Below, in pieces: positions 18,140 to 64,000 of a DNA stretch of 64,000 nucleotides. The position numbers and the translations under genes were made by a program. The DNA is from Liolophura sinensis. Its lineage: Eukaryota > Mollusca > Polyplacophora > Chitonida > Chitonidae. Positions within the stretch are counted from its first letter, which is position 1. Each line of letters opens with the position of its first letter. The stretch lies in NCBI RefSeq assembly GCF_032854445.1, contig NC_088304.1:30015732-30079731 (forward strand). Reading direction: 5' to 3'. The notes under the pieces are model-generated. The model was not told where the DNA came from, made no database searches, and saw nothing but the letters and a program-made list of their open reading frames with translations.

Positions 18140-18161
18140 CATTGTATACAATGCGTAGGTG

Positions 18162-18236
18162 GCCAGCCATTTGCAGTTCGCCCAAGCCGGACACGGGCCG
18201 TCTTACACCAGTTTGAGTGGTGAGGCAGATTAAATC
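18162..18236 (+). promoter_or_regulatory. Proximal U1 promoter of unit 1
   Basis: These 75 bp are the only upstream sequence shared with the other units, so the proximal element (PSE equivalent, expected about 40-65 bp upstream) should lie here, around TTCGCCCAAGCCGGACACGG. Unit 1 differs by a few bases and lacks the left arm of the inverted repeat seen elsewhere. Confidence 0.5.
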
Positions 18237-18398
18237 ATACTTACTTGGCACAGGGGCTACCGTGATCAATCAGGCGGTGCCCCCAGGGCGAGGCCTTCCC
18301 ATTGCACTTCGGTGGGCTGACCCCTGCGATCGCCCCAAATGTGGGCGACTCGGGTGCGTAATTTTTACTCAGGGGGACTGCGTTCGCGCTATCCCCTT
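18237..18398 (+). ncRNA. U1: U1 snRNA, unit 1 (5'-end variant)
   Basis: Same RNA as the unit 2 reference except that the 5' end reads ATACTTACTTGG: nt 9, which pairs with the last exon base at 5' splice sites, is U instead of C. The upstream region beyond 75 bp is unique to this copy. A 3'-box-like GTGAAAAACAGA lies at 18411-18422. Confidence 0.93.
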
Positions 18399-18583
18399 TC
18401 ATGAACCTAAGTGAAAAACAGAATACAAACATCAACACTTGTCCTTAGTCGGAGATGCGCATCTGGATTAGACAGCCACCACTGCACTGCTGTGTACAGG
18501 CACGTGCGCACTTCGTGTAGGGTTGGTCGCAGACGTTTGGCATGCATGTGACAGCGGCATCCAAGGCAAGTTTTCTGCACGTA

Positions 18584-19974
18584 CCGTAAGCTGGGGTGAA
18601 TTGGGACGATTTTTGTAGTCTTTTCTTTCTGTGCTTCAGAATATCTGATATAATAAGGACTTTTTCTTCTTATCAGTTTGCATTTAATATATGGGTTCAG
18701 CCAGCATTAGTACAAGTCTTAAATGTATAAGAGTCTGCGATTTTTTTTTGTTTGAAAGTTGTCCGAATTCCCCCCCCCCCACAGGAGGTGGTGACTTCGG
18801 ACATTTACTTTACACCAACACATAAACGAGATAAGCCAACCAAAGGGTTGGTTTCGGACTTTAATTAGGTTTTTAAAAAATACAAATTTTAACTTAAACA
18901 TCTCAGGATGTTTGAAAAGTTATAAATGCACGTGTTTTGCTTAACAATGAAACAAATTTGAGAAACCGCAATCACGTTTACACCATTTGGGAGCATAATT
19001 TTACAGTTTAAAAACAAAAGCTATGCAACACACAGTTCAAATACGGAACAGAACGTCTCTAGAATTCCTTTTGTTGACTATGGGATCCATTCACTGGCGT
19101 CAGCCGCAAATTTGAGCAGACCTCTTCGCAGTGTTTGTGGTTGATTAAGTGCTCCAACTATTTGGTCGAAATCCACTAATGCACAGTCTTCTTCTTTGGG
19201 GTGAACAAATACATTTGTCTGCAGACTTTTTCTTCTTAGAAAAGAAACCTCAAGATCCCCATCTGAATAATACACGGTGTCGATCCTTCCGATGAACAGT
19301 TTCTTCACACGATCCCCGAGCCGCACTAATACCCACTGATCTACATGTAACTCCTTAATTGACTTCACGTTAACCACGCCAGTTAGTCCAGTCCTTCCAC
19401 TGCTTCGCTGAGCATTTCCCGATGACGAGGTTCCCTGGACACCTTCTGTTTCTATATTATCGCAATGGCTGCTAACCCCTTTATCGGAATCTCCACCTTC
19501 TGTGCTCTCAGACGACGCTTCTGTAGATTGCTCTTCTCCTGAACTTGTTTCCTCGGAGTCACTAGTTTCACCGTTGTCATCATCATTGTGGGATAAATCC
19601 TCTGAAGAAACACTTTTTCCCGGCTCAACACGAAGACGCTTTGCTCGTTTCTTTGGCTGTTTACAATCTGCACCACGCATGTCTTTCAACAACGCTATTA
19701 ATGCGCCATCCACTCCATGGCCTCCTGCTCCTTCAGGAGTTTTCTCGGTTTCCCTGGGAATCCTATGAAGAACAGGGGTTGGGTCGTGAGGGACAATGCC
19801 GCACTCTTTAAACGCAGATTTTACATTTTCGCTCTGAGTGGTAGATAATTTCTCTGAAAGTTCATGAAGTAGCCGTGGGAATACATCTTTTGCAACAGTA
19901 ACGATACTATTGTATACTTTTATTGGCTCACTGTCCGAATTCACCACGTTGTCCGAAGTCACCCCAATTTACGG
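18584..19974 (-). mobile_element. Transposon relic, unit 1 (pogo/Tigger/Jerky-type, internally deleted)
   Basis: The left end CCGTAAGCTGGGGTGAATTG and the inverted right end CCGTAAATTGGGGTGACTTC are similar terminal inverted repeats, each bordered by TA (18582-18583, 19975-19976), as expected for the Tc1/mariner/pogo superfamily. The motif GGTGA(A/C)TTCGGAC recurs inside both ends, probably as transposase-binding repeats. Only the transposase C-terminus remains (19078-19962). The internal C-tract at 18770-18780 lies in a hairpin whose stem is TGTCCGAA/TTCGGACA. The same element occupies every unit, so it was in place before amplification. Confidence 0.88.
19078..19962 (-). pseudogene. Transposase C-terminal remnant, unit 1 (open, 294 codons)
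   Basis: Residues 20-75 (VFPRLLHELS, ENVKSAF.CGIVPHDPTPVL) fit the segment after the catalytic domain in pogo/Tigger/Jerky-type transposases. Residues 105-190 are Ser/Asp/Glu-rich with a basic patch KQPKKRAKRLR before them. Residues 207-285 (VDQWVLVRLGDRVKKLFIGR through LRRGLLKF) resemble the small C-terminal domain of invertebrate members. No DDE domain or DNA-binding domain is present. The frame begins after TAA at the transposon tip; the first codon that could start is GTG, its first 11 or so residues are translated inverted repeat, and the first ATG is near codon 94. In unit 1 residue 53 is Glu and residue 66 His. Confidence 0.85.
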
Positions 19975-19976
19975 TA

Positions 19977-20126
19977 CTGATGGACAGAATATAACCAAAG
20001 GAGTGAAAAAGGTTTTAACACTGACAGAGATTGGGTGCCAAAGGAAAGTGAGGAAAGCTCGTATTTGACGAGAGACAGAACACCCACTCAAGTCTCGTGC
20101 GCACTTCGTGCGTTTTGTGCCGGGCC
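19977..20126. other. Spacer between relic and next U1 (reference for all units)
   Basis: About 150 bp of non-coding sequence present in units 1-22. It ends with CGTGCGCACTTCGTG (20096-20110), a 15-bp string also found 266 bp after the U1 start (18503-18517 in unit 1). No known promoter motif recognised. Confidence 0.6.
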
Positions 20127-20207
20127 AAGACGGCCAGCCATTTGCGGTTCGCCCAAGCCGGACACGGGCCGTCTTTCACCAGTTTGAGTGGTGAGGCAGA
20201 TCAAATC
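20127..20207 (+). promoter_or_regulatory. Proximal U1 promoter with 9-bp inverted repeat (reference, units 2-23)
   Basis: AAGACGGCC (20127-20135) and GGCCGTCTT (20167-20175) form a perfect inverted repeat with a 31-nt spacer, spanning -81 to -33 of U1, where the proximal sequence element is expected. TCACCA/TGGTGA makes a second small hairpin next to it. No match to the vertebrate PSE consensus is evident. Confidence 0.5.
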
Positions 20208-20369
20208 ATACTTACCTGGCACAGGGGCTACCGTGATCAATCAGGCGGTGCCCCCAGGGCGAGGCCTTCCCATTGCACTTCGGTGGGCTGACCCCTGCGA
20301 TCGCCCCAAATGTGGGCGACTCGGGTGCGTAATTTTTACTCAGGGGGACTGCGTTCGCGCTATCCCCTT
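20208..20369 (+). ncRNA. U1: U1 snRNA, unit 2 (reference copy)
   Basis: RNA of about 162 nt with the universal 5' end ATACTTACCTG, which pairs with 5' splice sites in the U1 snRNP. CAGGGG/CCCCTG forms helix H. Stem-loop I has a good stem (ACCGU/GCGGU), but its ten-base loop is GAUCAAUCAG, against canonical GAUCACGAAG, the U1-70K site. Stem-loop II keeps AUUGCAC, the core bound by U1A/SNF. Stem III UCGCCC...GGGCGA is fully paired, with bases differing from human on both sides. The Sm site is AATTTTTA, and stem-loop IV is GGGG..CTGCGTTCGCG..CCCC. The 3' end is placed by alignment with human U1. Confidence 0.97.
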
Positions 20370-20381
20370 TCATGAACCTAA

Positions 20382-20393
20382 GTGAAAAACAGA
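20382..20393 (+). terminator. 3' box of U1 (reference; present in all units)
   Basis: GTGAAAAACAGA lies about 13 nt after the U1 3' end and fits the snRNA 3'-box consensus GTTTN0-3AAARNNAGA, read by the Integrator machinery. It sits at +174 to +185 from each U1 start. Confidence 0.65.
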
Positions 20394-20554
20394 ATACAAA
20401 CATCAACACTTGTCCTTAGTCGGAGATGCGCATCTGGATTAGACAGCCACCACTGCACTGCTGTGTACAGGCACGTGCGCACTTCGTGTAGGGTTGGTCG
20501 CAGACGTTTGGCATGCATGTGACAGCGGCATCCAAGGCAAGTTTTCTGCACGTA

Positions 20555-21947
20555 CCGTAAGCTGGGGTGAATTGGGACGATTTTTGTAGTCTTTTCTTTC
20601 TGTGCTTCAGAATATCTGATATAATAAGGACTTTTTCTTCTTATCAGTTTGCATTTAATATATGGGTTCAGCCAGCATCAGTACAAGTCTTAAATGTATA
20701 AGAGTCTGCGATTTTTTTTTGTTTGAAAGTTGTCCGAATTCCCCCCCCCCCCCACAGGAGGTGGTGACTTCGGACATTTACTTTACACCAACACATAAAC
20801 GAGATAAGCCAACCAAAGGGTTGGTTTCGGACTTTAATTAGGTTTTTAAAAAATACAAATTTTAACTTAAACATCTCAGGATGTTTGAAAAGTTATAAAT
20901 GCACGTGTTTTGCTTAACAATGAAACAAATTTGAGAAACCGCAATCACGTTTACACCATTTGGGAGCATAATTTTACAGTTTAAAAACAAAAGCTATGCA
21001 ACACACAGTTCAAATACGGAACAGAACGTCTCTAGAATTCCTTTTGTTGACTATGGGATCCATTCACTGGCGTCAGCCGCAAATTTGAGCAGACCTCTTC
21101 GCAGTGTTTGTGGTTGATTAAGTGCTCCAACTATTTGGTCGAAATCCACTAATGCACAGTCTTCTTCTTTGGGGTGAACAAATACATTTGTCTGCAGACT
21201 TTTTCTTCTTAGAAAAGAAACCTCAAGATCCCCATCTGAATAATACACGGTGTCGATCCTTCCGATGAACAGTTTCTTCACACGATCCCCGAGCCGCACT
21301 AATACCCACTGATCTACATGTAACTCCTTAATTGACTTCACGTTAACCACGCCAGTTAGTCCAGTCCTTCCACTGCTTCGCTGAGCATTTCCCGATGACG
21401 AGGTTCCCTGGACACCTTCTGTTTCTATATTATCGCAATGGCTGCTAACCCCTTTATCGGAATCTCCACCTTCTGTGCTCTCAGACGACGCTTCTGTAGA
21501 TTGCTCTTCTCCTGAACTTGTTTCCTCGGAGTCACTAGTTTCACCGTTGTCATCATCATTGTGGGATAAATCCTCTGAAGAAACACTTTTTCCCGGCTCA
21601 ACACGAAGACGCTTTGCTCGTTTCTTTGGCTGTTTACAATCTGCACCACGCATGTCTTTCAACAACGCTATTAATGCGCCATCCACTCCATGGCCTCCTG
21701 CTCCTTCAGGAGTTTTCTCGGTTTCCCTGGGAATCCTATCAAGAACAGGGGTTGGGTCGTGAGGGACAATGCCGCACTTTTTAAACGCAGATTTTACATT
21801 TTCGCTCTGAGTGGTAGATAATTTCTCTGAAAGTTCATGAAGTAGCCGTGGGAATACATCTTTTGCAACAGTAACGATACTATTGTATACTTTTATTGGC
21901 TCACTGTCCGAATTCACCACGTTGTCCGAAGTCACCCCAATTTACGG
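20555..21947 (-). mobile_element. Transposon relic, unit 2
   Basis: Both ends and TA borders intact; uninterrupted C-tract before ACAGGAGGTGG. Confidence 0.88.
21051..21935 (-). pseudogene. Transposase C-terminal remnant, unit 2 (open)
   Basis: 294 codons with Lys53 and Asp66, the commoner allele pair in this array. Confidence 0.85.
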
Positions 21948-22180
21948 TACTGATGGACAGAATATAACCAAAGGAGTGAAAAAGGTTTTAACACTGACAG
22001 AGATTGGGTGCCAAAGGAAAGTGAGGAAAGCTCGTATTTGACGAGAGACAGAACACCCACTCAAGTCTCGTGCGCACTTCGTGCGTTTTGTGCCGGGCCA
22101 AGACGGCCAGCCATTTGCGGTTCGCCCAAGCCGGACACGGGCCGTCTTTCACCAGTTTGAGTGGTGAGGCAGATCAAATC

Positions 22181-22342
22181 ATACTTACCTGGCACAGGGG
22201 CTACCGTGATCAATCAGGCGGTGCCCCCAGGGCGAGGCCTTCCCATTGCACTTCGGTGGGCTGACCCCTGCGATCGCCCCAAATGTGGGCGACTCGGGTG
22301 CGTAATTTTTACTCAGGGGGACTGCGTTCGCGCTATCCCCTT
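22181..22342 (+). ncRNA. U1: U1 snRNA, unit 3
   Basis: Same as the unit 2 RNA; preceded by the promoter with the 9-bp inverted repeat. Confidence 0.97.
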
Positions 22343-22527: not shown

Positions 22528-23920
22528 CCGTAAGCTGGGGTGAATTGGGACGATTTTTGTAGTCTTTTCTTTCTGTGCTTCAGAATATCTGATATAATAA
22601 GGACTTTTTCTTCTTATCAGTTTGCATTTAATATATGGGTTCAGCCAGCATCAGTACAAGTCTTAAATGTATAAGAGTCTGCGATTTTTTTTTGTTTGAA
22701 AGTTGTCCGAATTCCCCCCCCCCCCCACAGGAGGTGGTGACTTCGGACATTTACTTTACACCAACACATAAACGAGATAAGCCAACCAAAGGGTTGGTTT
22801 CGGACTTTAATTAGGTTTTTAAAAAATACAAATTTTAACTTAAACATCTCAGGATGTTTGAAAAGTTATAAATGCACGTGTTTTGCTTAACAATGAAACA
22901 AATTTGAGAAACCGCAATCACGTTTACACCATTTGGGAGCATAATTTTACAGTTTAAAAACAAAAGCTATGCAACACACAGTTCAAATACGGAACAGAAC
23001 GTCTCTAGAATTCCTTTTGTTGACTATGGGATCCATTCACTGGCGTCAGCCGCAAATTTGAGCAGACCTCTTCGCAGTGTTTGTGGTTGATTAAGTGCTC
23101 CAACTATTTGGTCGAAATCCACTAATGCACAGTCTTCTTCTTTGGGGTGAACAAATACATTTGTCTGCAGACTTTTTCTTCTTAGAAAAGAAACCTCAAG
23201 ATCCCCATCTGAATAATACACGGTGTCGATCCTTCCGATGAACAGTTTCTTCACACGATCCCCGAGCCGCACTAATACCCACTGATCTACATGTAACTCC
23301 TTAATTGACTTCACGTTAACCACGCCAGTTAGTCCAGTCCTTCCACTGCTTCGCTGAGCATTTCCCGATGACGAGGTTCCCTGGACACCTTCTGTTTCTA
23401 TATTATCGCAATGGCTGCTAACCCCTTTATCGGAATCTCCACCTTCTGTGCTCTCAGACGACGCTTCTGTAGATTGCTCTTCTCCTGAACTTGTTTCCTC
23501 GGAGTCACTAGTTTCACCGTTGTCATCATCATTGTGGGATAAATCCTCTGAAGAAACACTTTTTCCCGGCTCAACACGAAGACGCTTTGCTCGTTTCTTT
23601 GGCTGTTTACAATCTGCACCACGCATGTCTTTCAACAACGCTATTAATGCGCCATCCACTCCATGGCCTCCTGCTCCTTCAGGAGTTTTCTCGGTTTCCC
23701 TGGGAATCCTATCAAGAACAGGGGTTGGGTCGTGAGGGACAATGCCGCACTTTTTAAACGCAGATTTTACATTTTCGCTCTGAGTGGTAGATAATTTCTC
23801 TGAAAGTTCATGAAGTAGCCGTGGGAATACATCTTTTGCAACAGTAACGATACTATTGTATACTTTTATTGGCTCACTGTCCGAATTCACCACGTTGTCC
23901 GAAGTCACCCCAATTTACGG
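22528..23920 (-). mobile_element. Transposon relic, unit 3
   Basis: Same length as unit 2 (1393 bp), uninterrupted C-tract. Confidence 0.88.
23024..23908 (-). pseudogene. Transposase C-terminal remnant, unit 3 (open)
   Basis: 294 codons, Lys53/Asp66; protein identical to unit 2. Confidence 0.85.
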
Positions 23921-24153: not shown

Positions 24154-24315
24154 ATACTTACCTGGCACAGGGGCTACCGTGATCAATCAGGCGGTGCCCC
24201 CAGGGCGAGGCCTTCCCATTGCACTTCGGTGGGCTGACCCCTGCGATCGCCCCAAATGTGGGCGACTCGGGTGCGTAATTTTTACTCAGGGGGACTGCGT
24301 TCGCGCTATCCCCTT
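24154..24315 (+). ncRNA. U1: U1 snRNA, unit 4
   Basis: Same as the unit 2 RNA. Confidence 0.97.
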
Positions 24316-24500: not shown

Positions 24501-25897
24501 CCGTAAGCTGGGGTGAATTGGGACGATTTTTGTAGTCTTTTCTTTCTGTGCTTCAGAATATCTGATATAATAAGGACTTTTTCTTCTTATCAGTTTGCAT
24601 TTAATATATGGGTTCAGCCAGCATCAGTACAAGTCTTAAATGTATAAGAGTCTGCGATTTTTTTTTGTTTGAAAGTTGTCCGAATTCCCCCCCCCCCCCC
24701 CCCACAGGAGGTGGTGACTTCGGACATTTACTTTACACCAACACATAAACGAGATAAGCCAACCAAAGGGTTGGTTTCGGACTTTAATTAGGTTTTTAAA
24801 AAATACAAATTTTAACTTAAACATCTCAGGATGTTTGAAAAGTTATAAATGCACGTGTTTTGCTTAACAATGAAACAAATTTGAGAAACCGCAATCACGT
24901 TTACACCATTTGGGAGCATAATTTTACAGTTTAAAAACAAAAGCTATGCAACACACAGTTCAAATACGGAACAGAACGTCTCTAGAATTCCTTTTGTTGA
25001 CTATGGGATCCATTCACTGGCGTCAGCCGCAAATTTGAGCAGACCTCTTCGCAGTGTTTGTGGTTGATTAAGTGCTCCAACTATTTGGTCGAAATCCACT
25101 AATGCACAGTCTTCTTCTTTGGGGTGAACAAATACATTTGTCTGCAGACTTTTTCTTCTTAGAAAAGAAACCTCAAGATCCCCATCTGAATAATACACGG
25201 TGTCGATCCTTCCGATGAACAGTTTCTTCACACGATCCCCGAGCCGCACTAATACCCACTGATCTACATGTAACTCCTTAATTGACTTCACGTTAACCAC
25301 GCCAGTTAGTCCAGTCCTTCCACTGCTTCGCTGAGCATTTCCCGATGACGAGGTTCCCTGGACACCTTCTGTTTCTATATTATCGCAATGGCTGCTAACC
25401 CCTTTATCGGAATCTCCACCTTCTGTGCTCTCAGACGACGCTTCTGTAGATTGCTCTTCTCCTGAACTTGTTTCCTCGGAGTCACTAGTTTCACCGTTGT
25501 CATCATCATTGTGGGATAAATCCTCTGAAGAAACACTTTTTCCCGGCTCAACACGAAGACGCTTTGCTCGTTTCTTTGGCTGTTTACAATCTGCACCACG
25601 CATGTCTTTCAACAACGCTATTAATGCGCCATCCACTCCATGGCCTCCTGCTCCTTCAGGAGTTTTCTCGGTTTCCCTGGGAATCCTATCAAGAACAGGG
25701 GTTGGGTCGTGAGGGACAATGCCGCACTTTTTAAACGCAGATTTTACATTTTCGCTCTGAGTGGTAGATAATTTCTCTGAAAGTTCATGAAGTAGCCGTG
25801 GGAATACATCTTTTGCAACAGTAACGATACTATTGTATACTTTTATTGGCTCACTGTCCGAATTCACCACGTTGTCCGAAGTCACCCCAATTTACGG
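24501..25897 (-). mobile_element. Transposon relic, unit 4
   Basis: Four bases longer than unit 2 because of a longer C-tract. Confidence 0.88.
25001..25885 (-). pseudogene. Transposase C-terminal remnant, unit 4 (open)
   Basis: 294 codons, Lys53/Asp66. Confidence 0.85.
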
Positions 25898-26130: not shown

Positions 26131-26292
26131 ATACTTACCTGGCACAGGGGCTACCGTGATCAATCAGGCGGTGCCCCCAGGGCGAGGCCTTCCCATTGCA
26201 CTTCGGTGGGCTGACCCCTGCGATCGCCCCAAATGTGGGCGACTCGGGTGCGTAATTTTTACTCAGGGGGACTGCGTTCGCGCTATCCCCTT
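26131..26292 (+). ncRNA. U1: U1 snRNA, unit 5
   Basis: Same as the unit 2 RNA. Confidence 0.97.
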
Positions 26293-26477: not shown

Positions 26478-27873
26478 CCGTAAGCTGGGGTGAATTGGGA
26501 CGATTTTTGTAGTCTTTTCTTTCTGTGCTTCAGAATATCTGATATAATAAGGACTTTTTCTTCTTATCAGTTTGCATTTAATATATGGGTTCAGCCAGCA
26601 TCAGTACAAGTCTTAAATGTATAAGAGTCTGCGATTTTTTTTTGTTTGAAAGTTGTCCGAATTCCCCCCCCCCCCCCCCACAGGAGGTGGTGACTTCGGA
26701 CATTTACTTTACACCAACACATAAACGAGATAAGCCAACCAAAGGGTTGGTTTCGGACTTTAATTAGGTTTTTAAAAAATACAAATTTTAACTTAAACAT
26801 CTCAGGATGTTTGAAAAGTTATAAATGCACGTGTTTTGCTTAACAATGAAACAAATTTGAGAAACCGCAATCACGTTTACACCATTTGGGAGCATAATTT
26901 TACAGTTTAAAAACAAAAGCTATGCAACACACAGTTCAAATACGGAACAGAACGTCTCTAGAATTCCTTTTGTTGACTATGGGATCCATTCACTGGCGTC
27001 AGCCGCAAATTTGAGCAGACCTCTTCGCAGTGTTTGTGGTTGATTAAGTGCTCCAACTATTTGGTCGAAATCCACTAATGCACAGTCTTCTTCTTTGGGG
27101 TGAACAAATACATTTGTCTGCAGACTTTTTCTTCTTAGAAAAGAAACCTCAAGATCCCCATCTGAATAATACACGGTGTCGATCCTTCCGATGAACAGTT
27201 TCTTCACACGATCCCCGAGCCGCACTAATACCCACTGATCTACATGTAACTCCTTAATTGACTTCACGTTAACCACGCCAGTTAGTCCAGTCCTTCCACT
27301 GCTTCGCTGAGCATTTCCCGATGACGAGGTTCCCTGGACACCTTCTGTTTCTATATTATCGCAATGGCTGCTAACCCCTTTATCGGAATCTCCACCTTCT
27401 GTGCTCTCAGACGACGCTTCTGTAGATTGCTCTTCTCCTGAACTTGTTTCCTCGGAGTCACTAGTTTCACCGTTGTCATCATCATTGTGGGATAAATCCT
27501 CTGAAGAAACACTTTTTCCCGGCTCAACACGAAGACGCTTTGCTCGTTTCTTTGGCTGTTTACAATCTGCACCACGCATGTCTTTCAACAACGCTATTAA
27601 TGCGCCATCCACTCCATGGCCTCCTGCTCCTTCAGGAGTTTTCTCGGTTTCCCTGGGAATCCTATCAAGAACAGGGGTTGGGTCGTGAGGGACAATGCCG
27701 CACTCTTTAAACGCAGATTTTACATTTTCGCTCTGAGTGGTAGATAATTTCTCTGAAAGTTCATGAAGTAGCCGTGGGAATACATCTTTTGCAACAGTAA
27801 CGATACTATTGTATACTTTTATTGGCTCACTGTCCGAATTCACCACGTTGTCCGAAGTCACCCCAATTTACGG
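26478..27873 (-). mobile_element. Transposon relic, unit 5
   Basis: Intact ends, uninterrupted C-tract. Confidence 0.88.
26977..27861 (-). pseudogene. Transposase C-terminal remnant, unit 5 (open)
   Basis: 294 codons with the mixed pair Glu53/Asp66, also seen in units 17 and 20-22. Confidence 0.85.
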
Positions 27874-28106: not shown

Positions 28107-28268
28107 ATACTTACCTGGCACAGGGGCTACCGTGATCAATCAGGCGGTGCCCCCAGGGCGAGGCCTTCCCATTGCACTTCGGTGGGCTGACCCCTGCGAT
28201 CGCCCCAAATGTGGGCGACTCGGGTGCGTAATTTTTACTCAGGGGGACTGCGTTCGCGCTATCCCCTT
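28107..28268 (+). ncRNA. U1: U1 snRNA, unit 6
   Basis: Same as the unit 2 RNA. Confidence 0.97.
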
Positions 28269-28453: not shown

Positions 28454-29859
28454 CCGTAAGCTGGGGTGAATTGGGACGATTTTTGTAGTCTTTTCTTTCT
28501 GTGCTTCAGAATATCTGATATAATAAGGACTTTTTCTTCTTATCAGTTTGCATTTAATATATGGGTTCAGCCAGCATCAGTACAAGTCTTAAATGTATAA
28601 GAGTCTGCGATTTTTTTTTGTTTGAAAGTTGTCCGAATTCCCCCCCCCCCCCCCCCACCCCCACCACAGGAGGTGGTGACTTCGGACATTTACTTTACAC
28701 CAACACATAAACGAGATAAGCCAACCAAAGGGTTGGTTTCGGACTTTAATTAGGTTTTTAAAAAATACAAATTTTAACTTAAACATCTCAGGATGTTTGA
28801 AAAGTTATAAATGCACGTGTTTTGCTTAACAATGAAACAAATTTGAGAAACCGCAATCACGTTTACACCATTTGGGAGCATAATTTTACAGTTTAAAAAC
28901 AAAAGCTATGCAACACACAGTTCAAATACGGAACAGAACGTCTCTAGAATTCCTTTTGTTGACTATGGGATCCATTCACTGGCGTCAGCCGCAAATTTGA
29001 GCAGACCTCTTCGCAGTGTTTGTGGTTGATTAAGTGCTCCAACTATTTGGTCGAAATCCACTAATGCACAGTCTTCTTCTTTGGGGTGAACAAATACATT
29101 TGTCTGCAGACTTTTTCTTCTTAGAAAAGAAACCTCAAGATCCCCATCTGAATAATACACGGTGTCGATCCTTCCGATGAACAGTTTCTTCACACGATCC
29201 CCGAGCCGCACTAATACCCACTGATCTACATGTAACTCCTTAATTGACTTCACGTTAACCACGCCAGTTAGTCCAGTCCTTCCACTGCTTCGCTGAGCAT
29301 TTCCCGATGACGAGGTTCCCTGGACACCTTCTGTTTCTATATTATCGCAATGGCTGCTAACCCCTTTATCGGAATCTCCACCTTCTGTGCTCTCAGACGA
29401 CGCTTCTGTAGATTGCTCTTCTCCTGAACTTGTTTCCTCGGAGTCACTAGTTTCACCGTTGTCATCATCATTGTGGGATAAATCCTCTGAAGAAACACTT
29501 TTTCCCGGCTCAACACGAAGACGCTTTGCTCGTTTCTTTGGCTGTTTACAATCTGCACCACGCATGTCTTTCAACAACGCTATTAATGCGCCATCCACTC
29601 CATGGCCTCCTGCTCCTTCAGGAGTTTTCTCGGTTTCCCTGGGAATCCTATCAAGAACAGGGGTTGGGTCGTGAGGGACAATGCCGCACTTTTTAAACGC
29701 AGATTTTACATTTTCGCTCTGAGTGGTAGATAATTTCTCTGAAAGTTCATGAAGTAGCCGTGGGAATACATCTTTTGCAACAGTAACGATACTATTGTAT
29801 ACTTTTATTGGCTCACTGTCCGAATTCACCACGTTGTCCGAAGTCACCCCAATTTACGG
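28454..29859 (-). mobile_element. Transposon relic, unit 6
   Basis: The C-tract carries an ACCCCCACC interruption before ACAGGAGG, the first unit with this variant. Confidence 0.88.
28963..29847 (-). pseudogene. Transposase C-terminal remnant, unit 6 (open)
   Basis: 294 codons, Lys53/Asp66. Confidence 0.85.
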
Positions 29860-30092: not shown

Positions 30093-30254
30093 ATACTTAC
30101 CTGGCACAGGGGCTACCGTGATCAATCAGGCGGTGCCCCCAGGGCGAGGCCTTCCCATTGCACTTCGGTGGGCTGACCCCTGCGATCGCCCCAAATGTGG
30201 GCGACTCGGGTGCGTAATTTTTACTCAGGGGGACTGCGTTCGCGCTATCCCCTT
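30093..30254 (+). ncRNA. U1: U1 snRNA, unit 7
   Basis: Same as the unit 2 RNA. Confidence 0.97.
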
Positions 30255-51650: not shown

Positions 51651-53046
51651 CCGTAAGCTGGGGTGAATTGGGACGATTTTTGTAGTCTTTTCTTTCTGTG
51701 CTTCAGAATATCTGATATAATAAGGACTTTTTCTTCTTATCAGTTTGCATTTAATATATGGGTTCAGCCAGCATCAGTACAAGTCTTAAATGTATAAGAG
51801 TCTGCGATTTTTTTTTGTTTGAAAGTTGTCCGAATTCCCCCCCCCCCCCCCCACAGGAGGTGGTGACTTCGGACATTTACTTTACACCAACACATAAACG
51901 AGATAAGCCAACCAAAGGGTTGGTTTCGGACTTTAATTAGGTTTTTAAAAAATACAAATTTTAACTTAAACATCTCAGGATGTTTGAAAAGTTATAAATG
52001 CACGTGTTTTGCTTAACAATGAAACAAATTTGAGAAACCGCAATCACGTTTACACCATTTGGGAGCATAATTTTACAGTTTAAAAACAAAAGCTATGCAA
52101 CACACAGTTCAAATACGGAACAGAACGTCTCTAGAATTCCTTTTGTTGACTATGGGATCCATTCACTGGCGTCAGCCGCAAATTTGAGCAGACCTCTTCG
52201 CAGTGTTTGTGGTTGATTAAGTGCTCCAACTATTTGGTCGAAATCCACTAATGCACAGTCTTCTTCTTTGGGGTGAACAAATACATTTGTCTGCAGACTT
52301 TTTCTTCTTAGAAAAGAAACCTCAAGATCCCCATCTGAATAATACACGGTGTCGATCCTTCCGATGAACAGTTTCTTCACACGATCCCCGAGCCGCACTA
52401 ATACCCACTGATCTACATGTAACTCCTTAATTGACTTCACGTTAACCACGCCAGTTAGTCCAGTCCTTCCACTGCTTCGCTGAGCATTTCCCGATGACGA
52501 GGTTCCCTGGACACCTTCTGTTTCTATATTATCGCAATGGCTGCTAACCCCTTTATCGGAATCTCCACCTTCTGTGCTCTCAGACGACGCTTCTGTAGAT
52601 TGCTCTTCTCCTGAACTTGTTTCCTCGGAGTCACTAGTTTCACCGTTGTCATCATCATTGTGGGATAAATCCTCTGAAGAAACACTTTTTCCCGGCTCAA
52701 CACGAAGACGCTTTGCTCGTTTCTTTGGCTGTTTACAATCTGCACCACGCATGTCTTTCAACAACGCTATTAATGCGCCATCCACTCCATGGCCTCCTGC
52801 TCCTTCAGGAGTTTTCTCGGTTTCCCTGGGAATCCTATCAAGAACAGGGGTTGGGTCGTGAGGGACAATGCCGCACTCTTTAAACGCAGATTTTACATTT
52901 TCGCTCTGAGTGGTAGATAATTTCTCTGAAAGTTCATGAAGTAGCCGTGGGAATACATCTTTTGCAACAGTAACGATACTATTGTATACTTTTATTGGCT
53001 CACTGTCCGAATTCACCACGTTGTCCGAAGTCACCCCAATTTACGG
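51651..53046 (-). mobile_element. Transposon relic, unit 17
   Basis: Uninterrupted C-tract, intact ends. Confidence 0.88.
52150..53034 (-). pseudogene. Transposase C-terminal remnant, unit 17 (open)
   Basis: 294 codons, Glu53/Asp66. Confidence 0.85.
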
Positions 53047-53279: not shown

Positions 53280-53441
53280 ATACTTACCTGGCACAGGGGC
53301 TACCGTGATCAATCAGGCGGTGCCCCCAGGGCGAGGCCTTCCCATTGCACTTCGGTGGGCTGACCCCTGCGATCGCCCCAAATGTGGGCGACTCGGGTGC
53401 GTAATTTTTACTCAGGGGGACTGCGTTCGCGCTATCCCCTT
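53280..53441 (+). ncRNA. U1: U1 snRNA, unit 18
   Basis: Same as the unit 2 RNA, although the relic in this unit is among the most diverged. Confidence 0.97.
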
Positions 53442-53626: not shown

Positions 53627-55016
53627 CCGTAAGCTGGGGTGAATTGGGACGATTTTTGTAGTCTTTTCTTTCTGTGCTTCAGAATATCTGATATAATAAG
53701 GACTTTTTCTTCTTATCAGTTTGCATTTAATATATGGGTTCAGCCAGCATCAGTACAAGTCTTAAATGTATAAGAGTCTGCGATTTTTTTTTGTTTGAAA
53801 GTTGTCCGAATCCCCCCCCCCCACAGGAGGTGGTGACTTCGGACATTTACTTTACACCAACACATAAACGAGATAAGCCAACCAAAGGGTTGGTTTCGGA
53901 CTTTAATTAGGTTTTTAAAAAATACAAATTTTAACTTAAACATCTCAGGATGTTTGAAAAGTTATAAATGCACGTGTTTTGCTTAACAACGAAACAAATT
54001 TGAGAAACTGCAATCACATTTACACCATTTGGGAGCATAATTTTACAGTTTAAAAACAAAAGCTATGCAACACACAGTTCAAATACGGAACAGAACGTCT
54101 CTAGAATTCCTTTTGTTGACTATGGGATCCATTCACTGGCGTCAGCCGCAAATTTGAGCAGACCTCTTCGCAGTGTTTGTGGTTGATTAAGTGCTCCAAC
54201 TATTTGGTCGAAATCCACTAATGCACTGTCTTCTTCTTTGGGGTGAACAAATACATTTGTCTGCAGACTTTTTCTTCTTAGAAAAGAAACCTCAAGATCC
54301 CCATCTGAATAATACACGGTGTCGATCCTTCCGATGAACAGTTTCTTCACACGATCCCCGAGCCGCACTAATACCCACTGATCTACATGTAACTCCTTAA
54401 TTGACTTCACGTTAACCACGCCAGTTAGTCCAGTCCTTCCACTGCTTCGCTGAGCATTTCCCGATGACGAGGTTCCCTGGACGCCTTCTGTTTCTATATT
54501 ATCGCAATGGCTGCTAACCCCTTTATCGGAATCTCCACCTTCTGTGCTCTCAGACGACGCTTCTGTAGATTGCTCTTCTCCTGAACTTGTTTCCTCGGAG
54601 TCACTAGTTTCACCGTTGTCATCATCATTGTGGGATAAATCCTCTGAAGAAACACTTTTTCCCGGCTCAACACGAAGACGCTTTGCTCGTTTCTTTGGCT
54701 GTTTACAATCTGCACCACGCATGTCTTTCAACAACGCTATTAATGCGCCATCCACTCCATGGCCTCCTGCTCCTTCAGGAGTTTTCTCGGTTTCCCTGGG
54801 AATCCTATCAAGAACAGGGGTTGGGTCGTGAGGGACAATGCCGCACTTTTTAAACGCAGATTTTACATTTTCGCTCTGAGTGGTAGATAATTTCTCTGAA
54901 AGTTCATGAAGTAGCCGTGGGAATACATCTTTTGCAACAGTAACGATACTATTGTATACTTTTATTGGCTCACTGTCCGAATTCACCACGTTGTCCGAAG
55001 TCACCCCAATTTACGG
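53627..55016 (-). mobile_element. Transposon relic, unit 18 (diverged)
   Basis: Short C-tract after CCGAATCC (one T fewer), plus private changes AACAACGAAAC, GAAACTGCAATCACATTTAC and a G at 54483. Confidence 0.88.
54120..55004 (-). pseudogene. Transposase C-terminal remnant, unit 18 (open)
   Basis: 294 codons, Lys53/Asp66, with a private Cys-to-Ser change in KEEDCALVDFD. Confidence 0.85.
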
Positions 55017-55249: not shown

Positions 55250-55411
55250 ATACTTACCTGGCACAGGGGCTACCGTGATCAATCAGGCGGTGCCCCCAGG
55301 GCGAGGCCTTCCCATTGCACTTCGGTGGGCTGACCCCTGCGATCGCCCCAAATGTGGGCGACTCGGGTGCGTAATTTTTACTCAGGGGGACTGCGTTCGC
55401 GCTATCCCCTT
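55250..55411 (+). ncRNA. U1: U1 snRNA, unit 19
   Basis: Same as the unit 2 RNA. Confidence 0.97.
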
Positions 55412-56094
55412 TCATGAACCTAAGTGAAAAACAGAATACAAACATCAACACTTGTCCTTAGTCGGAGATGCGCATCTGGATTAGACAGCCACCACTGCAC
55501 TGCTGTGTACAGGCACGTGCGCACTTCGTGTAGGGTTGGTCGCAGACGTTTGGCATGCATGTGACAGCGGCATCCAAGGCAAGTTTTCTGCACGTACCGT
55601 AAGCTGGGGTGAATTGGGACGATTTTTGTAGTCTTTTCTTTCTGTGCTTCAGAATATCTGATATAATAAGGACTTTTTCTTCTTATCAGTTTGCATTTAA
55701 TATATGGGTTCAGTCAGCATCAGTACAAGTCTTAAATGTATAAGAGTCTGCGATTTTTTTTTGTTTGAAAGTTGTCCGAATTCCCCCCCCCCCCCCCACA
55801 GGAGGTGGTGACTTCGGACATTTACTTTACACCAACACATAAACGAGATAAGCCAACCAAAGGGTTGGTTTCGGACTTTAATTAGGTTTTTAAAAAATAC
55901 AAATTTTAACTTAAACATCTCAGGATGTTTGAAAAGTTATAAATGCACGTGTTTTGCTTAACAATGAAACAAATTTGAGAAACCGCAATCACGTTTACAC
56001 CATTTGGGAGCATAATTTTACAGTTTAAAAACAAAAGCTATGCAACACACAGTTCAAATACGGAACAGAACGTCTCTAGAATTCCTTTTGTTGA

Positions 56095-57268
56095 CTATGG
56101 GATCCATTCACTGGCGTCAGCCGCAAATTTGAGCAGACCTCTTCGCAGTGTTTGTGGTTGATTAAGTGCTCCAACTATTTGGTCGAAATCCACTAATGCA
56201 CAGTCTTCTTCTTTGGGGTGAACAAATACATTTGTCTGCAGACTTTTTCTTCTTAGAAAAGAAACCTCAAGATCCCCATCTGAATAATACACGGTGTCGA
56301 TCCTTCCGATGAACAGTTTCTTCACACGATCCCCGAGCCGCACTAATACCCACTGATCTACATGTAACTCCTTAATTGACTTCACGTTAACCACGCCAGT
56401 TAGTCCAGTCCTTCCACTGCTTCGCTGAGCATTTCCCGATGACGAGGTTCCCTGGACGCCTTCTGTTTCTATATTATCGCAATGGCTGCTAACCCCTTTA
56501 TCGGAATCTCCACCTTCTGTGCTCTCAGACGACGCTTCTGTAGATTGCTCTTCTCCTGAACTTGTTTCCTCGGAGTCACTAGTTTCACCGTTGTCATCAT
56601 CATTGTGGGATAAATCCTCTGAAGAAACACTTTTTCCCGGGGGCCTCCGTGGCTCAGTCGGTTAGCGCGCTAGCGCAGCGTAATGACCCAGAAGCCTCTC
56701 ACCAATGCGGTCGCTGTGAGTTCAAGACCAGCTTATGCTGCCTTCCTCTCCGGCCGTACGTGGGAAGGTCTGCCAGAAACCTGCGGATGGTCGTGGGTTT
56801 CCCCCGGGCTGTGCCCGGTTTCCACCCACCATAATGCTGGCCGCCGTCGTATAAGTGAAATATTCTTGAGTACGGCGTAAAACACCAATCAAAAAAAAAA
56901 AAAAAAAAAAAAAAAAAACTTTTTCCCGGCTCAACACGAAGACACTTTGCTCGTTTCTTTGGCTGTTTACAATCTGCACCACGCATGTCTTTCAACAACG
57001 CTATTAATGCGCCATCCACTCCATGGCCTCCTGCTCCTTCAGGAGTTTTCTCGGTTTCCCTGGGAATCCTATCAAGAACAGGGGTTGGGTCGTGAGGGAC
57101 AATGCCGCACTTTTTAAACGCAGATTTTACATTTTCGCTCTGAGTGGTAGATAATTTCTCTGAAAGTTCATGAAGTAGCCGTGGGAATACATCTTTTGCA
57201 ACAGTAACGATACTATTCTATACTTTTATTGGCTCACTGTCCGAATTCACCACGTTGTCCGAAGTCAC
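56095..57268 (-). pseudogene. Transposase C-terminal remnant, unit 19 (split by SINE)
   Basis: The pieces 56095-56639 (545 bp) and 56929-57268 (340 bp) sum to exactly 885 bp once one copy of the target duplication is removed. Lys53/Asp66. Confidence 0.9.
56640..56917 (+). mobile_element. SINE inserted in the unit 19 relic
   Basis: Same family as 10556 and 13321, with A-box TGGCTCAGTCGGTTAGC, a B-box region GAGTTCAAGACC, CGTAAAACACCAATC and a poly-A tail of about 26. The 11-bp target-site duplication ACTTTTTCCCG lies at 56629-56639 and 56918-56928. Confidence 0.96.
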
Positions 57269-57513
57269 CCCAATTTACGGTACTGATGGACAGAATATAA
57301 CCAAAGGAGTGAAAAAGGTTTTAACACTGACAGAGATTGGGTGCCAAAGGAAAGTGAGGAAAGCTCGTATTTGACGAGAGACAGAACACCCACTCAAGTC
57401 TCGTGCGCACTTCGTGCGTTTTGTGCCGGGCCAAGACGGCCAGCCATTTGCGGTTCGCCCAAGCCGGACACGGGCCGTCTTTCACCAGTTTGAGTGGTGA
57501 GGCAGATCAAATC

Positions 57514-57675
57514 ATACTTACCTGGCACAGGGGCTACCGTGATCAATCAGGCGGTGTCCCCAGGGCGAGGCTTTCCCATTGCACTTCGGTGGGCTGACCC
57601 CTGCGATCGCCCCAAATGTGGGCGACTCGGGTGCGTAATTTTTACTCAGGGGGACTGCGTTCGCGCTATCCCCTT
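57514..57675 (+). ncRNA. U1: U1 snRNA, unit 20 (two C-to-T changes)
   Basis: Differs from the unit 2 RNA at nt 44 (GCGGTGTCCCC) and nt 59 (GAGGCTTTCCC). The first lies in the lower stem of stem-loop I, where U can still pair with G; the second is on the 5' side of stem-loop II. Confidence 0.95.
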
Positions 57676-57860: not shown

Positions 57861-59252
57861 CCGTAAGCTGGGGTGAATTGGGACGATTTTTGTAGTCTTT
57901 TCTTTCTGTGCTTCAGAATATCTGATATAATAAGGACTTTTTCTTCTTATCAGTTTGCATTTAATATATGGGTTCAGCCAGCATCAGTACAAGTCTTAAA
58001 TGTATAAGAGTCTGCGATTTTTTTTTGTTTGAAAGTTGTCCGATTTCCCCCCCCCCCAACAGGAGGTGGTGACTTCGGACATTTACTTTACACCAACACA
58101 TAAACGAGATAAGCCAACCAAAGGGTTGGTTTCGGACTTTAATTAGGTTTTTAAAAAATACAAATTTTAACTTAAACATCTCAGGATGTTTGAAAAGTTA
58201 TAAATGCACGTGTTTTGCTTAACAATGAAACAAATTTGAGAAACCGCAATCACGTTTACACCATTTGGGAGCATAATTTTACAGTTTAAAAACAAAAGCT
58301 ATGCAACACACAGTTCAAATACGGAACAGAACGTCTCTAGAATTCCTTTTGTTGACTATGGGATCCATTCACTGGCGTCAGCCGCAAATTTGAGCAGACC
58401 TCTTCGCAGTGTTTGTGGTTGATTAAGTGCTCCAACTATTTGGTCGAAATCCACTAATGCACAGTCTTCTTCTTTGGGGTGAACAAATACATTTGTCTGC
58501 AGACTTTTTCTTCTTAGAAAAGAAACCTCAAGATCCCCATCTGAATAATACACGGTGTCGATCCTTCCGATGAACAGTTTCTTCACACGATCCCCGAGCC
58601 GCACTAATACCCACTGATCTACATGTAACTCCTTAATTGACTTCACGTTAACCACGCCAGTTAGTCCAGTCCTTCCACTGCTTCGCTGAGCATTTCCCGA
58701 TGACGAGGTTCCCTGGACACCTTCTGTTTCTATATTATCGCAATGGCTGCTAACCCCTTTATCGGAATCTCCACCTTCTGTGCTCTCAGACGACGCTTCT
58801 GTAGATTGCTCTTCTCCTGAACTTGTTTCCTCGGAGTCACTAGTTTCACCGTTGTCATCATCATTGTGGGATAAATCCTCTGAAGAAACACTTTTTCCCG
58901 GCTCAACACGAAGACGCTTTGCTCGTTTCTTTGGCTGTTTACAATCTGCACCACGCATGTCTTTCAACAACGCTATTAATGCGCCATCCACTCCATGGCC
59001 TCCTGCTCCTTCAGGAGTTTTCTCGGTTTCCCTGGGAATCCTATCAAGAACAGGGGTTGGGTCGTGAGGGACAATGCCGCACTCTTTAAACGCAGATTTT
59101 ACATTTTCGCTCTGAGTGGTAGATAATTTCTCTGAAAGTTCATGAAGTAGCCGTGGGAATACATCTTTTGCAACAGTAACGATACTATTGTATACTTTTA
59201 TTGGCTCACTGTCCGAATTCACCACGTTGTCCGAAGTCACCCCAATTTACGG
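57861..59252 (-). mobile_element. Transposon relic, unit 20
   Basis: Private variant around the C-tract (CCGATTTCCC and CCAACAGGAGG), so the hairpin stem is weakened. Confidence 0.88.
58356..59240 (-). pseudogene. Transposase C-terminal remnant, unit 20 (open)
   Basis: 294 codons, Glu53/Asp66. Confidence 0.85.
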
Positions 59253-59485: not shown

Positions 59486-59647
59486 ATACTTACCTGGCAC
59501 AGGGGCTACCGTGATCAATCAGGCGGTGCCCCCAGGGCGAGGCCTTCCCATTGCACTTCGGTGGGCTGACCCCTGCGATCGCCCCAAATGTGGGCGACTC
59601 GGGTGCGTAATTTTTACTCAGGGGGACTGCGTTCGCGCTATCCCCTT
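59486..59647 (+). ncRNA. U1: U1 snRNA, unit 21
   Basis: Same as the unit 2 RNA. Confidence 0.97.
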
Positions 59648-59832: not shown

Positions 59833-61232
59833 CCGTAAGCTGGGGTGAATTGGGACGATTTTTGTAGTCTTTTCTTTCTGTGCTTCAGAATATCTGATAT
59901 AATAAGGACTTTTTCTTCTTATCAGTTTGCATTTAATATATGGGTTCAGCCAGCATTAGTACAAGTCTTAAATGTATAAGAGTCTGCGATTTTTTTTTGT
60001 TTGAAAGTTTTCCGAATTCCCCCCCCCCCCCCCCCCCCCACAGGAGGTGGTGACTTCGGACATTTACTTTACACCAACACATAAACGAGATAAGCCAACC
60101 AAAGGGTTGGTTTCGGACTTTAATTAGGTTTTTAAAAAATACAAATTTTAACTTAAACATCTCAGGATGTTTGAAAAGTTATAAATGCACGTGTTTTGCT
60201 TAACAATGAAACAAATTTGAGAAACCGCAATCACGTTTACACCATTTGGGAGCATAATTTTACAGTTTAAAAACAAAAGCTATGCAACACACAGTTCAAA
60301 TACGGAACAGAACGTCTCTAGAATTCCTTTTGTTGACTATGGGATCCATTCACTGGCGTCAGCCGCAAATTTGAGCAGACCTCTTCGCAGTGTTTGTGGT
60401 TGATTAAGTGCTCCAACTATTTGGTCGAAATCCACTAATGCACAGTCTTCTTCTTTGGGGTGAACAAATACATTTGTCTGCAGACTTTTTCTTCTTAGAA
60501 AAGAAACCTCAAGATCCCCATCTGAATAATACACGGTGTCGATCCTTCCGATGAACAGTTTCTTCACACGATCCCCGAGCCGCACTAATACCCACTGATC
60601 TACATGTAACTCCTTAATTGACTTCACGTTAACCACGCCAGTTAGTCCAGTCCTTCCACTGCTTCGCTGAGCATTTCCCGATGACGAGGTTCCCTGGACA
60701 CCTTCTGTTTCTATATTATCGCAATGGCTGCTAACCCCTTTATCGGAATCTCCACCTTCTGTGCTCTCAGACGACGCTTCTGTAGATTGCTCTTCTCCTG
60801 AACTTGTTTCCTCGGAGTCACTAGTTTCACCGTTGTCATCATCATTGTGGGATAAATCCTCTGAAGAAACACTTTTCCCGGCTCAACACGAAGACGCTTT
60901 GCTCGTTTCTTTGGCTGTTTACAATCTGCACCACGCATGTCTTTCAACAACGCTATTAATGCGCCATCCACTCCATGGCCTCCTGCTCCTTCAGGAGTTT
61001 TCTCGGTTTCCCTGGGAATCCTATCAAGAACAGGGGTTGGGTCGTGAGGGACAATGCCGCACTCTTTAAACGCAGATTTTACATTTTCGCTCTGAGTGGT
61101 AGATAATTTCTCTGAAAGTTCATGAAGTAGCCGTGGGAATACATCTTTTGCAACAGTAACGATACTATTGTATACTTTTATTGGCTCACTGTCCGAATTC
61201 ACCACGTTGTCCGAAGTCACCCCAATTTACGG
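59833..61232 (-). mobile_element. Transposon relic, unit 21
   Basis: Long C-tract after AAGTTTTCCGAATTC (G-to-T change in the hairpin stem). Shares CAGCATTAGTAC with units 1, 22 and 23, where the others have CAGCATCAGTAC. Confidence 0.88.
60337..61220 (-). pseudogene. Transposase C-terminal remnant, unit 21 (frameshifted)
   Basis: One T is missing in ACACTTTTCCCGG near 60874, shifting the frame at VEPGK. Glu53/Asp66. Confidence 0.88.
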
Positions 61233-61465: not shown

Positions 61466-61627
61466 ATACTTACCTGGCACAGGGGCTACCGTGATCAATC
61501 AGGCGGTGCCCCCAGGGCGAGGCCTTCCCATTGCACTTCGGTGGGCTGACCCCTGCGATCGCCCCAAATGTGGGCGACTCGGGTGCGTAATTTTTACTCA
61601 GGGGGACTGCGTTCGCGCTATCCCCTT
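61466..61627 (+). ncRNA. U1: U1 snRNA, unit 22
   Basis: Same as the unit 2 RNA. The 3' flank has one private G (GCAGGCGTTTGG). Confidence 0.97.
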
Positions 61628-61812
61628 TCATGAACCTAAGTGAAAAACAGAATACAAACATCAACACTTGTCCTTAGTCGGAGATGCGCATCTGGATTAG
61701 ACAGCCACCACTGCACTGCTGTGTACAGGCACGTGCGCACTTCGTGTAGGGTTGGTCGCAGGCGTTTGGCATGCATGTGACAGCGGCATCCAAGGCAAGT
61801 TTTCTGCACGTA

Positions 61813-63204
61813 CCGTAAGCTGGGGTGAATTGGGACGATTTTTGTAGTCTTTTCTTTCTGTGCTTCAGAATATCTGATATAATAAGGACTTTTTCTTCTT
61901 ATCAGTTTGCATTTAATATATGGGTTCAGCCAGCATTAGTACAAGTCTTAAATGTATAAGAGTCTGCGATTTTTTTTTGTTTGAAAGTTGTCCGAATTCC
62001 CCCCCCCCCCACAGGAGGTGGTGACTTCGGACATTTACTTTACACCAACACATAAACGAGATAAGCCAACCAAAGGGTTGGTTTCGGACTTTAATTAGGT
62101 TTTTAAAAAATACAAAGTTTAACTTAAACATCTCAGGATGTTTGAAAAGTTATAAATGCACGTGTTTTGCTTAACAATGAAACAAATTTGAGAAACCGCA
62201 ATCACGTTTACACCATTTGGGAGCATAATTTTACAGTTTAAAAACAAAAGCTATGCAACACACAGTTCAAATACGGAACAGAACGTCTCTAGAATTCCTT
62301 TTGTTGACTATGGGATCCATTCACTGGCGTCAGCCGCAAATTTGAGCAGACCTCTTCGCAGTGTTTGTGGTTGATTAAGTGCTCCAACTATTTGGTCGAA
62401 ATCCACTAATGCACAGTCTTCTTCTTTGGGGTGAACAAATACATTTGTCTGCAGACTTTTTCTTCTTAGAAAAGAAACCTCAAGATCCCCATCTGAATAA
62501 TACACGGTGTCGATCCTTCCGATGAACAGTTTCTTCACACGATCCCCGAGCCGCACTAATACCCACTGATCTACATGTAACTCCTTAATTGACTTCACGT
62601 TAACCACGCCAGTTAGTCCAGTCCTTCCACTGCTTCGCTGAGCATTTCCCGATGACGAGGTTCCCTGGACACCTTCTGTTTCTATATTATCGCAATGGCT
62701 GCTAACCCCTTTATCGGAATCTCCACCTTCTGTGCTCTCAGACGACGCTTCTGTAGATTGCTCTTCTCCTGAACTTGTTTCCTCGGAGTCACTAGTTTCA
62801 CCGTTGTCATCATCATTGTGGGATAAATCCTCTGAAGAAACACTTTTTCCCGGCTCAACACGAAGACGCTTTGCTCGTTTCTTTGGCTGTTTACAATCTG
62901 CACCACGCATGTCTTTCAACAACGCTATTAATGCGCCATCCACTCCATGGCCTCCTGCTCCTTCGGGAGTTTTCTCGATTTCCCTGGGAATCCTATCAAG
63001 AACAGGGGTTGGGTCGTGAGGGACAATGCCGCACTCTTTAAACGCAGATTTTACATTTTCGCTCTGAGTGGTAGATAATTTCTCTGAAAGTTCATGAAGT
63101 AGCCGTGGGAATACATCTTTTGCAACAGTAACGATACTATTGTATACTTTTATTGGCTCACTGTCCGAATTCACCACGTTGTCCGAAGTCACCCCAATTT
63201 ACGG
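61813..63204 (-). mobile_element. Transposon relic, unit 22
   Basis: Short C-tract; CAGCATTAGTAC variant; private TACAAAGTTTAAC change. Confidence 0.88.
62308..63192 (-). pseudogene. Transposase C-terminal remnant, unit 22 (open)
   Basis: 294 codons, Glu53/Asp66, with a private Thr-to-Ile change (PREIEKTPEG). Confidence 0.85.
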
Positions 63205-63437
63205 TACTGATGGACAGAATATAACCAAAGGAGTGAAAAAGGTTTTAACACTGACAGAGATTGGGTGCCAAAGGAAGGTGAGGAAAGCTCGTATTTGACG
63301 AGAGACAGAACACCCACTCAAGTCTCGTGCGCACTTCGTGCGTTTTGTGCCGGGCCAAGACGGCCAGCCATTTGCGGTTCGCCCAAGCCGGACACGGGCC
63401 GTCTTTCACCAGTTTGAGTGGTGAGGCAGATCAAATC

Positions 63438-63599
63438 ATACTTACCTGGCACAGGGGCTACCGTGATCAATCAGGCGGTGCCCCCAGGGCGAGGCCTTCC
63501 CATTGCACTTCGGTGGGCTGACCCCTGCGATCGCCCCAAATGTGGGCGACTCGGGTGCGTAATTTTTACTCAGGGGGACTGCGTTCGCGCTATCCCCTT
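63438..63599 (+). ncRNA. U1: U1 snRNA, unit 23
   Basis: Same as the unit 2 RNA; the last complete U1 in the window. Confidence 0.97.
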
Positions 63600-63784
63600 T
63601 CATGAACCTAAGTGAAAAACAGAATACAAACATCAACACTTGTCCTTAGTCGGAGATGCGCATCTGGATTAGACAGCCACCACTGCACTGCTGTGTACAG
63701 GCACGTGCGCACTTCGTGTAGGGTTGGTCGTAGACGTTTGGCATGCATGTGACAGCGGCATCCAAGGCAAGTTTTCTGCACGTA

Positions 63785-64000
63785 CCGTAAGCTGGGGTGA
63801 ATTGGGACGATTTTTGTAGTCTTTTCTTTCTGTGCTTCAGAATATCTGATATAATAAGGACTTTTTCTTCTTATCAGTTTGCATTTAATATATGGGTTCA
63901 GCCAGCATTAGTACAAGTCTTAAATGTATAAGAGTCTGCGATTTTTTTTTGTTTGAAAGTTGTCCGAATTCCCCCCCCCCCCCCCCACAGGAGGTGGTGA
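63785..64000 (-). mobile_element. Transposon relic, unit 23 (cut by the window end)
   Basis: The left inverted repeat and C-tract are present and the sequence stops at GAGGTGGTGA, so the array continues beyond the window. Confidence 0.88.

Follow-up and report, generated by a model that had tools for sequence, protein, structure and literature searches.

A tandem array of variant U1 genes with a pogo-like transposon in its spacer in the chiton Liolophura sinensis

What is a locus in which a U1 small nuclear RNA (snRNA) gene and a piece of a transposon recur side by side, unit after unit, and which of the two, if either, is functional? The question arises from a window of 64,000 nucleotides on contig C10 of the genome assembly of Liolophura sinensis (632 contigs, 609.46 Mb), a chiton assembly first published under the name Liolophura japonica, later corrected (PMC11068029, PMC12441733). 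All genome-wide counts and junction searches below refer to this one assembly; bare coordinates are positions in the window unless placed on a contig. We consider it likely that the locus is a tandemly amplified, paralogous variant U1 that is transcribed, perhaps in the embryo, and that binds the U1-70K protein weakly, with the transposon as a passenger. On this reading the U1 sequence is the most unusual part of the array, and the transposon the least functional.

Extent and homogeneity of the array

U1 genes were called by a covariance search with RF00003 (cut-off 69.5 bits). The window contains 23 matches, the first starting at 18237 and the last ending at 63599, all on the + strand and scoring 145-148 bits each, and the array is not a chance match. 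The genes are arranged head-to-tail in units of ~1.97 kb, with U1 starts 1970-1986 bp apart except at three units: unit 11 is short by ~138 bp, unit 16 is enlarged by a 1.5 kb Tc1-like insertion, and unit 19 is enlarged by a short interspersed nuclear element (SINE). Relative to unit 2, the reference for all unit-to-unit comparisons, aligned units are 98.3-100% identical, and unit 3 does not differ from unit 2 at all. A single poly-C tract accounts for most of the variation in unit length. Outside this tract each unit has 0-8 substitutions, apart from a single unit beyond the window that has 15. Private variants are common to adjacent units, the pattern that local duplication or conversion would give.

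The left end of the array lies at 18161, where it opens with 76 bp of promoter. Position 64000 is the edge of the window and not the end of the array, which continues on the + strand to C10:30096172, where a gap of 200 bp intervenes. Counted across and beyond the window, 31 units are consecutive. The last U1 of the array, at 30099019, lies behind a long interspersed nuclear element (LINE), and four further units are found on the unplaced contig C627. A preliminary description of the window had reported 23 head-to-tail units of about 1.97 kb, each with a U1 gene, and had suggested recent amplification or strong homogenisation; the covariance matches, their spacing and the identity between units bear out both statements. 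It had also placed the array at 18162-64000, which holds as a location within the window and fails as an end point. Its identification of the genes as U1 stands, though it missed that they are variants with an altered U1-70K loop.

Short high-fidelity (HiFi) reads (mean 8.3 kb, 14x; PMC11068029), the gap at 30096173 and the unplaced C627 might suggest that the copy number is an artefact of assembly. False duplication would not, however, yield private and locally common variants or the three unique insertions and deletions, and the gap and C627 point to collapse rather than inflation. Because adjacent units have private variants in common, the array is probably real, and we regard artefact as a very remote explanation of its copy number. 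The true number of units is nevertheless uncertain, owing to the short reads, the gap and the four extra units on C627.

Within the window, the U1 genes lie on the + strand at 18237..18398 (unit 1), 20208..20369 (unit 2), 22181..22342 (unit 3), 24154..24315 (unit 4), 26131..26292 (unit 5), 28107..28268 (unit 6), 30093..30254 (unit 7), 32072..32233 (unit 8), 34058..34219 (unit 9), 36037..36198 (unit 10), 38019..38180 (unit 11), 39868..40029 (unit 12), 41853..42014 (unit 13), 43829..43990 (unit 14), 45808..45969 (unit 15), 47786..47947 (unit 16), 51304..51465 (unit 17), 53280..53441 (unit 18), 55250..55411 (unit 19), 57514..57675 (unit 20, with two substitutions, C44T and C59T), 59486..59647 (unit 21), 61466..61627 (unit 22) and 63438..63599 (unit 23).

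Origin and spread of the pogo-like element

Each unit carries one pogo-like element of ~1393 bp, inserted at an identical spacer site between TA dinucleotides, ~185 bp 3' of one U1 and 233 bp 5' of the following U1. All 31 consecutive units contain it. In unit 2 the element occupies 20555..21947 (1393 bp), with ends CCGTAA...TTACGG and a transposase remnant on the - strand, and is flanked by the TA target-site duplication at 20553..20554 on its left and 21948..21949 on its right. A full-length parent is present at C2:23742903-23745678. This copy is 2776 bp long, has a TA duplication and encodes a 622-aa transposase with HTH_psq (2.7e-10) and DDE_1 (3.3e-20) domains. The array element is the parent minus an internal stretch of ~1.42 kb, with both ends and the transposase C-terminus kept. 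No Pfam domain was matched in the remnant, the helix-turn-helix (HTH) and DDE domains being gone. The array element is therefore a non-autonomous deletion derivative of a pogo/Tigger/Jerky-type transposon (IS630-Tc1-mariner-pogo), and has the TA target duplication and inverted termini of that group, as seen in the empty site and at the element's ends. It differs from other members in the loss of its HTH and DDE domains and in having been amplified only by homogenisation.

Element-free units remain at the right edge of the array, at C10:30111484-30112367 and 30139915-30140741, with the uninterrupted site CACGTACTGATGG. Because these relics retain the exact empty site, the ancestral unit is one of ~582 bp, comprising promoter, U1 and 3' spacer. 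The preliminary description was right to see an internally deleted pogo-type element, as the parent and its transposase confirm, but the U1 gene is not "fused" to a transposon relic; a single copy inserted at a TA within the spacer of a pre-existing 0.58 kb unit. In a further, chimeric relic at C10:30098380-30099185, an element-free spacer runs into the terminal portion of the element, and the bases of this relic are partway between those of the array and those of the full-length parent.

A full match to a probe spanning the deletion junction is obtained only in the array, on C627 and in the right-edge relic; elsewhere in the genome one half only is matched. Since the junction is confined to these places, the element has been multiplied at least 30-fold by homogenisation of the array and not by transposition, and transposition was rejected as the route by which the deleted element spread. 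The history began with an old U1 array of 0.58 kb units. A single deleted pogo-like copy then entered a spacer at a TA without breaking a gene, and the element-bearing unit came to replace the others, presumably by unequal exchange or conversion; element-free neighbours persist solely as right-edge relics. The locus shows plainly how a selfish element can be multiplied by concerted evolution rather than transposition, and it still preserves the ancestral unit without the insertion. We know of no transposon in described U1 repeat units, and a literature search, mostly outside subscription journals, found no U1 array with a transposon in its repeat unit.

A different history would have the transposon aimed at U1, or driving the amplification, either by targeting of the kind known from Dada or by repeated insertion into many units. 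Dada-U1 is likewise a DNA transposon associated with U1 genes; Dada targets U1 and U6 genes, and Dada-U6 is found in an oyster (PMC3706591). By definition, however, Dada inserts within the gene with a duplication of 6-7 bp (PMC3706591), whereas the chiton element lies in the spacer between TA dinucleotides and derives from a transposon with pogo-type domains, which together exclude Dada targeting. Against repeated insertion, all units have one insertion site and one private deletion in common, and other copies of the pogo-like element are dispersed in the genome. We regard targeting in either form as extremely improbable.

Could the element instead serve the array, its transposase C-terminus or its ends acting in recombination, as a boundary or in regulation? 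Its presence in every consecutive unit and an open frame of ~296 codons, intact in most units, would fit such a role. Recent homogenisation alone would, however, leave the frame intact, and several units contain stops. Compared with five other copies, the array element shows 1.5-2.7% divergence and a ratio of nonsynonymous to synonymous substitution (dN/dS) of about 1.0-1.8, and the coding remnant shows no constraint. With this ratio, the stops and the loss of both domains, a functional transposase fragment was rejected. Any service to the array is highly unlikely, and the element is very probably a passenger.

On the - strand, the remaining copies in the window lie at 18584..19972 (unit 1), 22528..23918 (unit 3), 24501..25895 (unit 4), 26478..27871 (unit 5), 28454..29857 (unit 6), 30440..31836 (unit 7), 32419..33822 (unit 8), 34405..35801 (unit 9), 36384..37783 (unit 10), 38366..39632 (unit 11, with the ~138-bp deletion), 40215..41617 (unit 12), 42200..43593 (unit 13), 44176..45572 (unit 14), 46155..47547 (unit 15), 48133..51071 (unit 16), 51651..53044 (unit 17), 53627..55014 (unit 18), 55597..57278 (unit 19), 57861..59250 (unit 20), 59833..61230 (unit 21), 61813..63202 (unit 22) and 63785..64000 (unit 23, cut off by the window edge). 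The copy in unit 16 is split by the Tc1-like transposon (HTH_Tnp_Tc3_2; 49026..50548, + strand), and that in unit 19 by the SINE, which is transfer RNA (tRNA)-like with an A-tail as judged by eye (56641..56910, + strand); each insertion is found in that unit only.

The variant U1 and its prospects of function

The array U1 is a full-length match to RF00003 (147.7 bits, model positions 1-166) with the 5' end ACUUACCUG. In unit 2, loop I at 20235-20244 is GATCAATCAG and not GATCACGAAG. In RNA terms, the array and relic U1s read GAUCAAUCAG and depart from the canonical U1-70K loop GAUCANGAAG, and because of this loop we assign the array to variant U1 and not to canonical U1. Three dispersed U1 genes, on C6 and C7 and identical to one another in sequence, have GAUCACGAAG at this position, and the Rfam consensus has GAUCAaGAAG. 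A pattern search of the genome returned 35 variant-loop and 3 canonical-loop U1 genes. The variant loop is not recent, because the right-edge relics already have it. The preliminary description had named a silent array together with a separate, expressed U1 locus as what would count against it; separate U1 genes are indeed present, on C6 and C7. Outside U1 these dispersed genes show no homology to the array, and without such flanks they were rejected as outgroup sequences in spacer comparisons.

Between the array and the dispersed U1 there are ten differences in the body of the RNA and one at the unpaired 3' end. By the Rfam structure, seven of the ten fall at paired sites, with pairing kept in all; three pairs are altered on both sides and one pair on one side. 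The other three, C33A, G34U and A35C, lie in the loop of stem-loop I. In the human structure, loop 3 of U1-70K embraces C33 and G34 (PMC4383343). Because the array alters both of these nucleotides, we predict that, on balance, its U1 would form a particle that holds U1-70K weakly or not at all. Human variant U1 (vU1) genes are similarly paralogous copies with base changes, and some of the human particles are without U1-70K (PMC5159530). The chiton variant differs from them in being almost uniform in sequence across a large, homogenised array and in retaining every helix.

The array genes also retain an snRNA promoter. A model of the proximal sequence element (PSE), trained on ten further snRNA genes in this genome and not on the array, places a 13.1-bit match precisely at -61 in the array, a score reached by none of 35,958 null windows. 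In unit 2 this PSE-like element, GTTCGCCCAAGCCGGACACGG, lies at 20147..20167 on the + strand (-61..-41). Unit 1 and the relic U1 at C10:30140378 have it unchanged, and the PSE of the last U1 (30099019) has one change. Directly 3' of U1, the spacer of unit 2 contains GTGAAAAACAGA (20372..20397, + strand), which by eye resembles the known 3'-box consensus AAARNNAGA. The array U1s keep all their helices, the sequence that recognises the 5' splice site and a U-rich stretch resembling an Sm site. Not all copies are intact: C9T alters the splice-site sequence of unit 1, and indels affect the U1 of unit 27. As promoter, splice-site sequence, Sm-like stretch and helices are all kept, the array U1 genes are most likely transcribed.

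Comparison of the array with an element-free relic gives 2 substitutions in 164 positions of U1, with no indels, and 15 in 298 positions of the spacer, plus 24 indel columns (p = 0.04). This comparison and the PSE favour living genes. Several observations weigh on the other side. The conservation of U1 over spacer between array and relic is statistically weak. Within the array, variant sites per base are similar in U1 (4/164) and the element (40/~1390); purifying selection on U1 is not visible there, and was set aside as a line of evidence with too few variants and no difference from the element. A single U1-70K gene was found, as an N-terminal match in an exon-by-exon search that is not conclusive, so nothing points to a dedicated U1-70K partner for the variant, and a second such gene was rejected as a candidate on the same footing. 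Because variants within the array are about as frequent in U1 as in the element, the case for function is only moderate.

A rival reading is a dead array, a silenced, satellite-like set of variant U1 pseudogenes, with all U1 made by the three dispersed canonical genes. The loss of the canonical U1-70K loop, the pile-up of pogo-like, Tc1-like, SINE and LINE insertions, the lack of a clear depletion of variants in U1 and damage to right-end units such as unit 27 all speak for it. Against it stand the intact PSE at its exact position, the pairing kept at all seven paired differences and the near-absence of change in U1 relative to the relic. We consider a dead array unlikely, and prefer the reading of a transcribed variant U1.

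Tandem arrangement is familiar from the U1 genes of frog and sea urchin. Developmental switches between embryonic and adult U1 sets have been reviewed (PMC4291461, PMC5159530). Like the sea urchin U1 repeat, Xenopus embryonic U1 and mouse U1b, the chiton has many near-identical copies together with other, differing U1 loci; its array is tandem, homogenised and distinct from the dispersed U1 genes, as embryonic arrays are. It differs from these developmental sets in that its units hold a transposon, which the described repeats are not known to do, and in that its variant alters the U1-70K loop. We propose that the array would be transcribed as a variant U1 that binds U1-70K poorly, with the three dispersed canonical genes supplying constitutive U1. 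By analogy with the U1 sets of frog, mouse and sea urchin, the variant may be used in oocytes and early embryos, a suggestion that we make tentatively. Rather unlikely as a whole is a bolder scheme in which a U1 free of U1-70K forms a second, developmental U1 particle with altered splice-site or telescripting activity, accompanied by a hitchhiking transposon and by LINEs that radiated to U1, U4 and U5 besides U2. A natural U1 with a changed U1-70K site, beside canonical genes in the same genome, puts two questions within reach of a direct test: whether U1 can function when U1-70K does not bind it firmly, and whether early development draws on tandem U1 arrays.

LINEs in snRNA genes and other features

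Two LINE copies lie at the right edge of the array, at C10:30096373-30098379 and 30112367-30139914. In both, in the same orientation, the poly-A is joined to U1 nucleotide 101 (at 30098379 and 30139914). They have RVT_1 and zf-RVT matches, with a weak match (7.6e-4) to Exo_endo_phos, of the apurinic/apyrimidinic endonuclease (APE) type. The copies are 85% alike in the reverse transcriptase, and no closer relatives were found in this genome. Because their 3' ends are only 73-77% alike, against a much closer match between the U1 repeats that flank them, the two insertions look independent, and a U1-targeting LINE is possible.

The poly-A ends of related LINEs are likewise joined to fixed positions within U2 (three copies), U4 (two copies) and U5 (one copy), C11:3657800 being among the loci of such snRNA-joined LINEs. 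Fixed-site joining is thus seen in several copies for U1 (two), U2 (three) and U4 (two), and in one copy only for U5; further related LINEs adjoin tRNA genes. The snRNA-targeting elements listed in 2015 were Keno and Utopia (U2), Dada-U1 and Dada-U6 only (PMC4640811). Like Keno and Utopia, the chiton LINEs have their 3' ends at a fixed site in an snRNA gene, and, judging from the weak match, they may have an APE-type endonuclease as Keno does. They differ in lying also at fixed sites in U1, U4 and U5, which that list does not include (PMC4640811). These insertions suggest that one genome may hold retrotransposons aimed at U1, U2, U4 and U5.

The U2 genes are split as well. Dispersed, high-scoring genes at C118:44355, C5:16020713 and C5:69641 reach 192-194 bits, and LINE-interrupted variant U2 at C9:5718148, C5:19478731 and C1:1908538 score 131-136 bits, in part because of truncation. 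A large U5 array occupies C11:3332696-3656615 in units of ~0.62 kb, and no inserted element was present in the units seen. To the left of the U1 array, the window contains three minisatellites, at 190-1915, 3181-3921 and 5586-8904, with units of 67, 24 and 48 bp, respectively. Between about 4073 and 14132 lie exon-like open frames that by eye, with no search run, resemble an acyl-CoA dehydrogenase gene.

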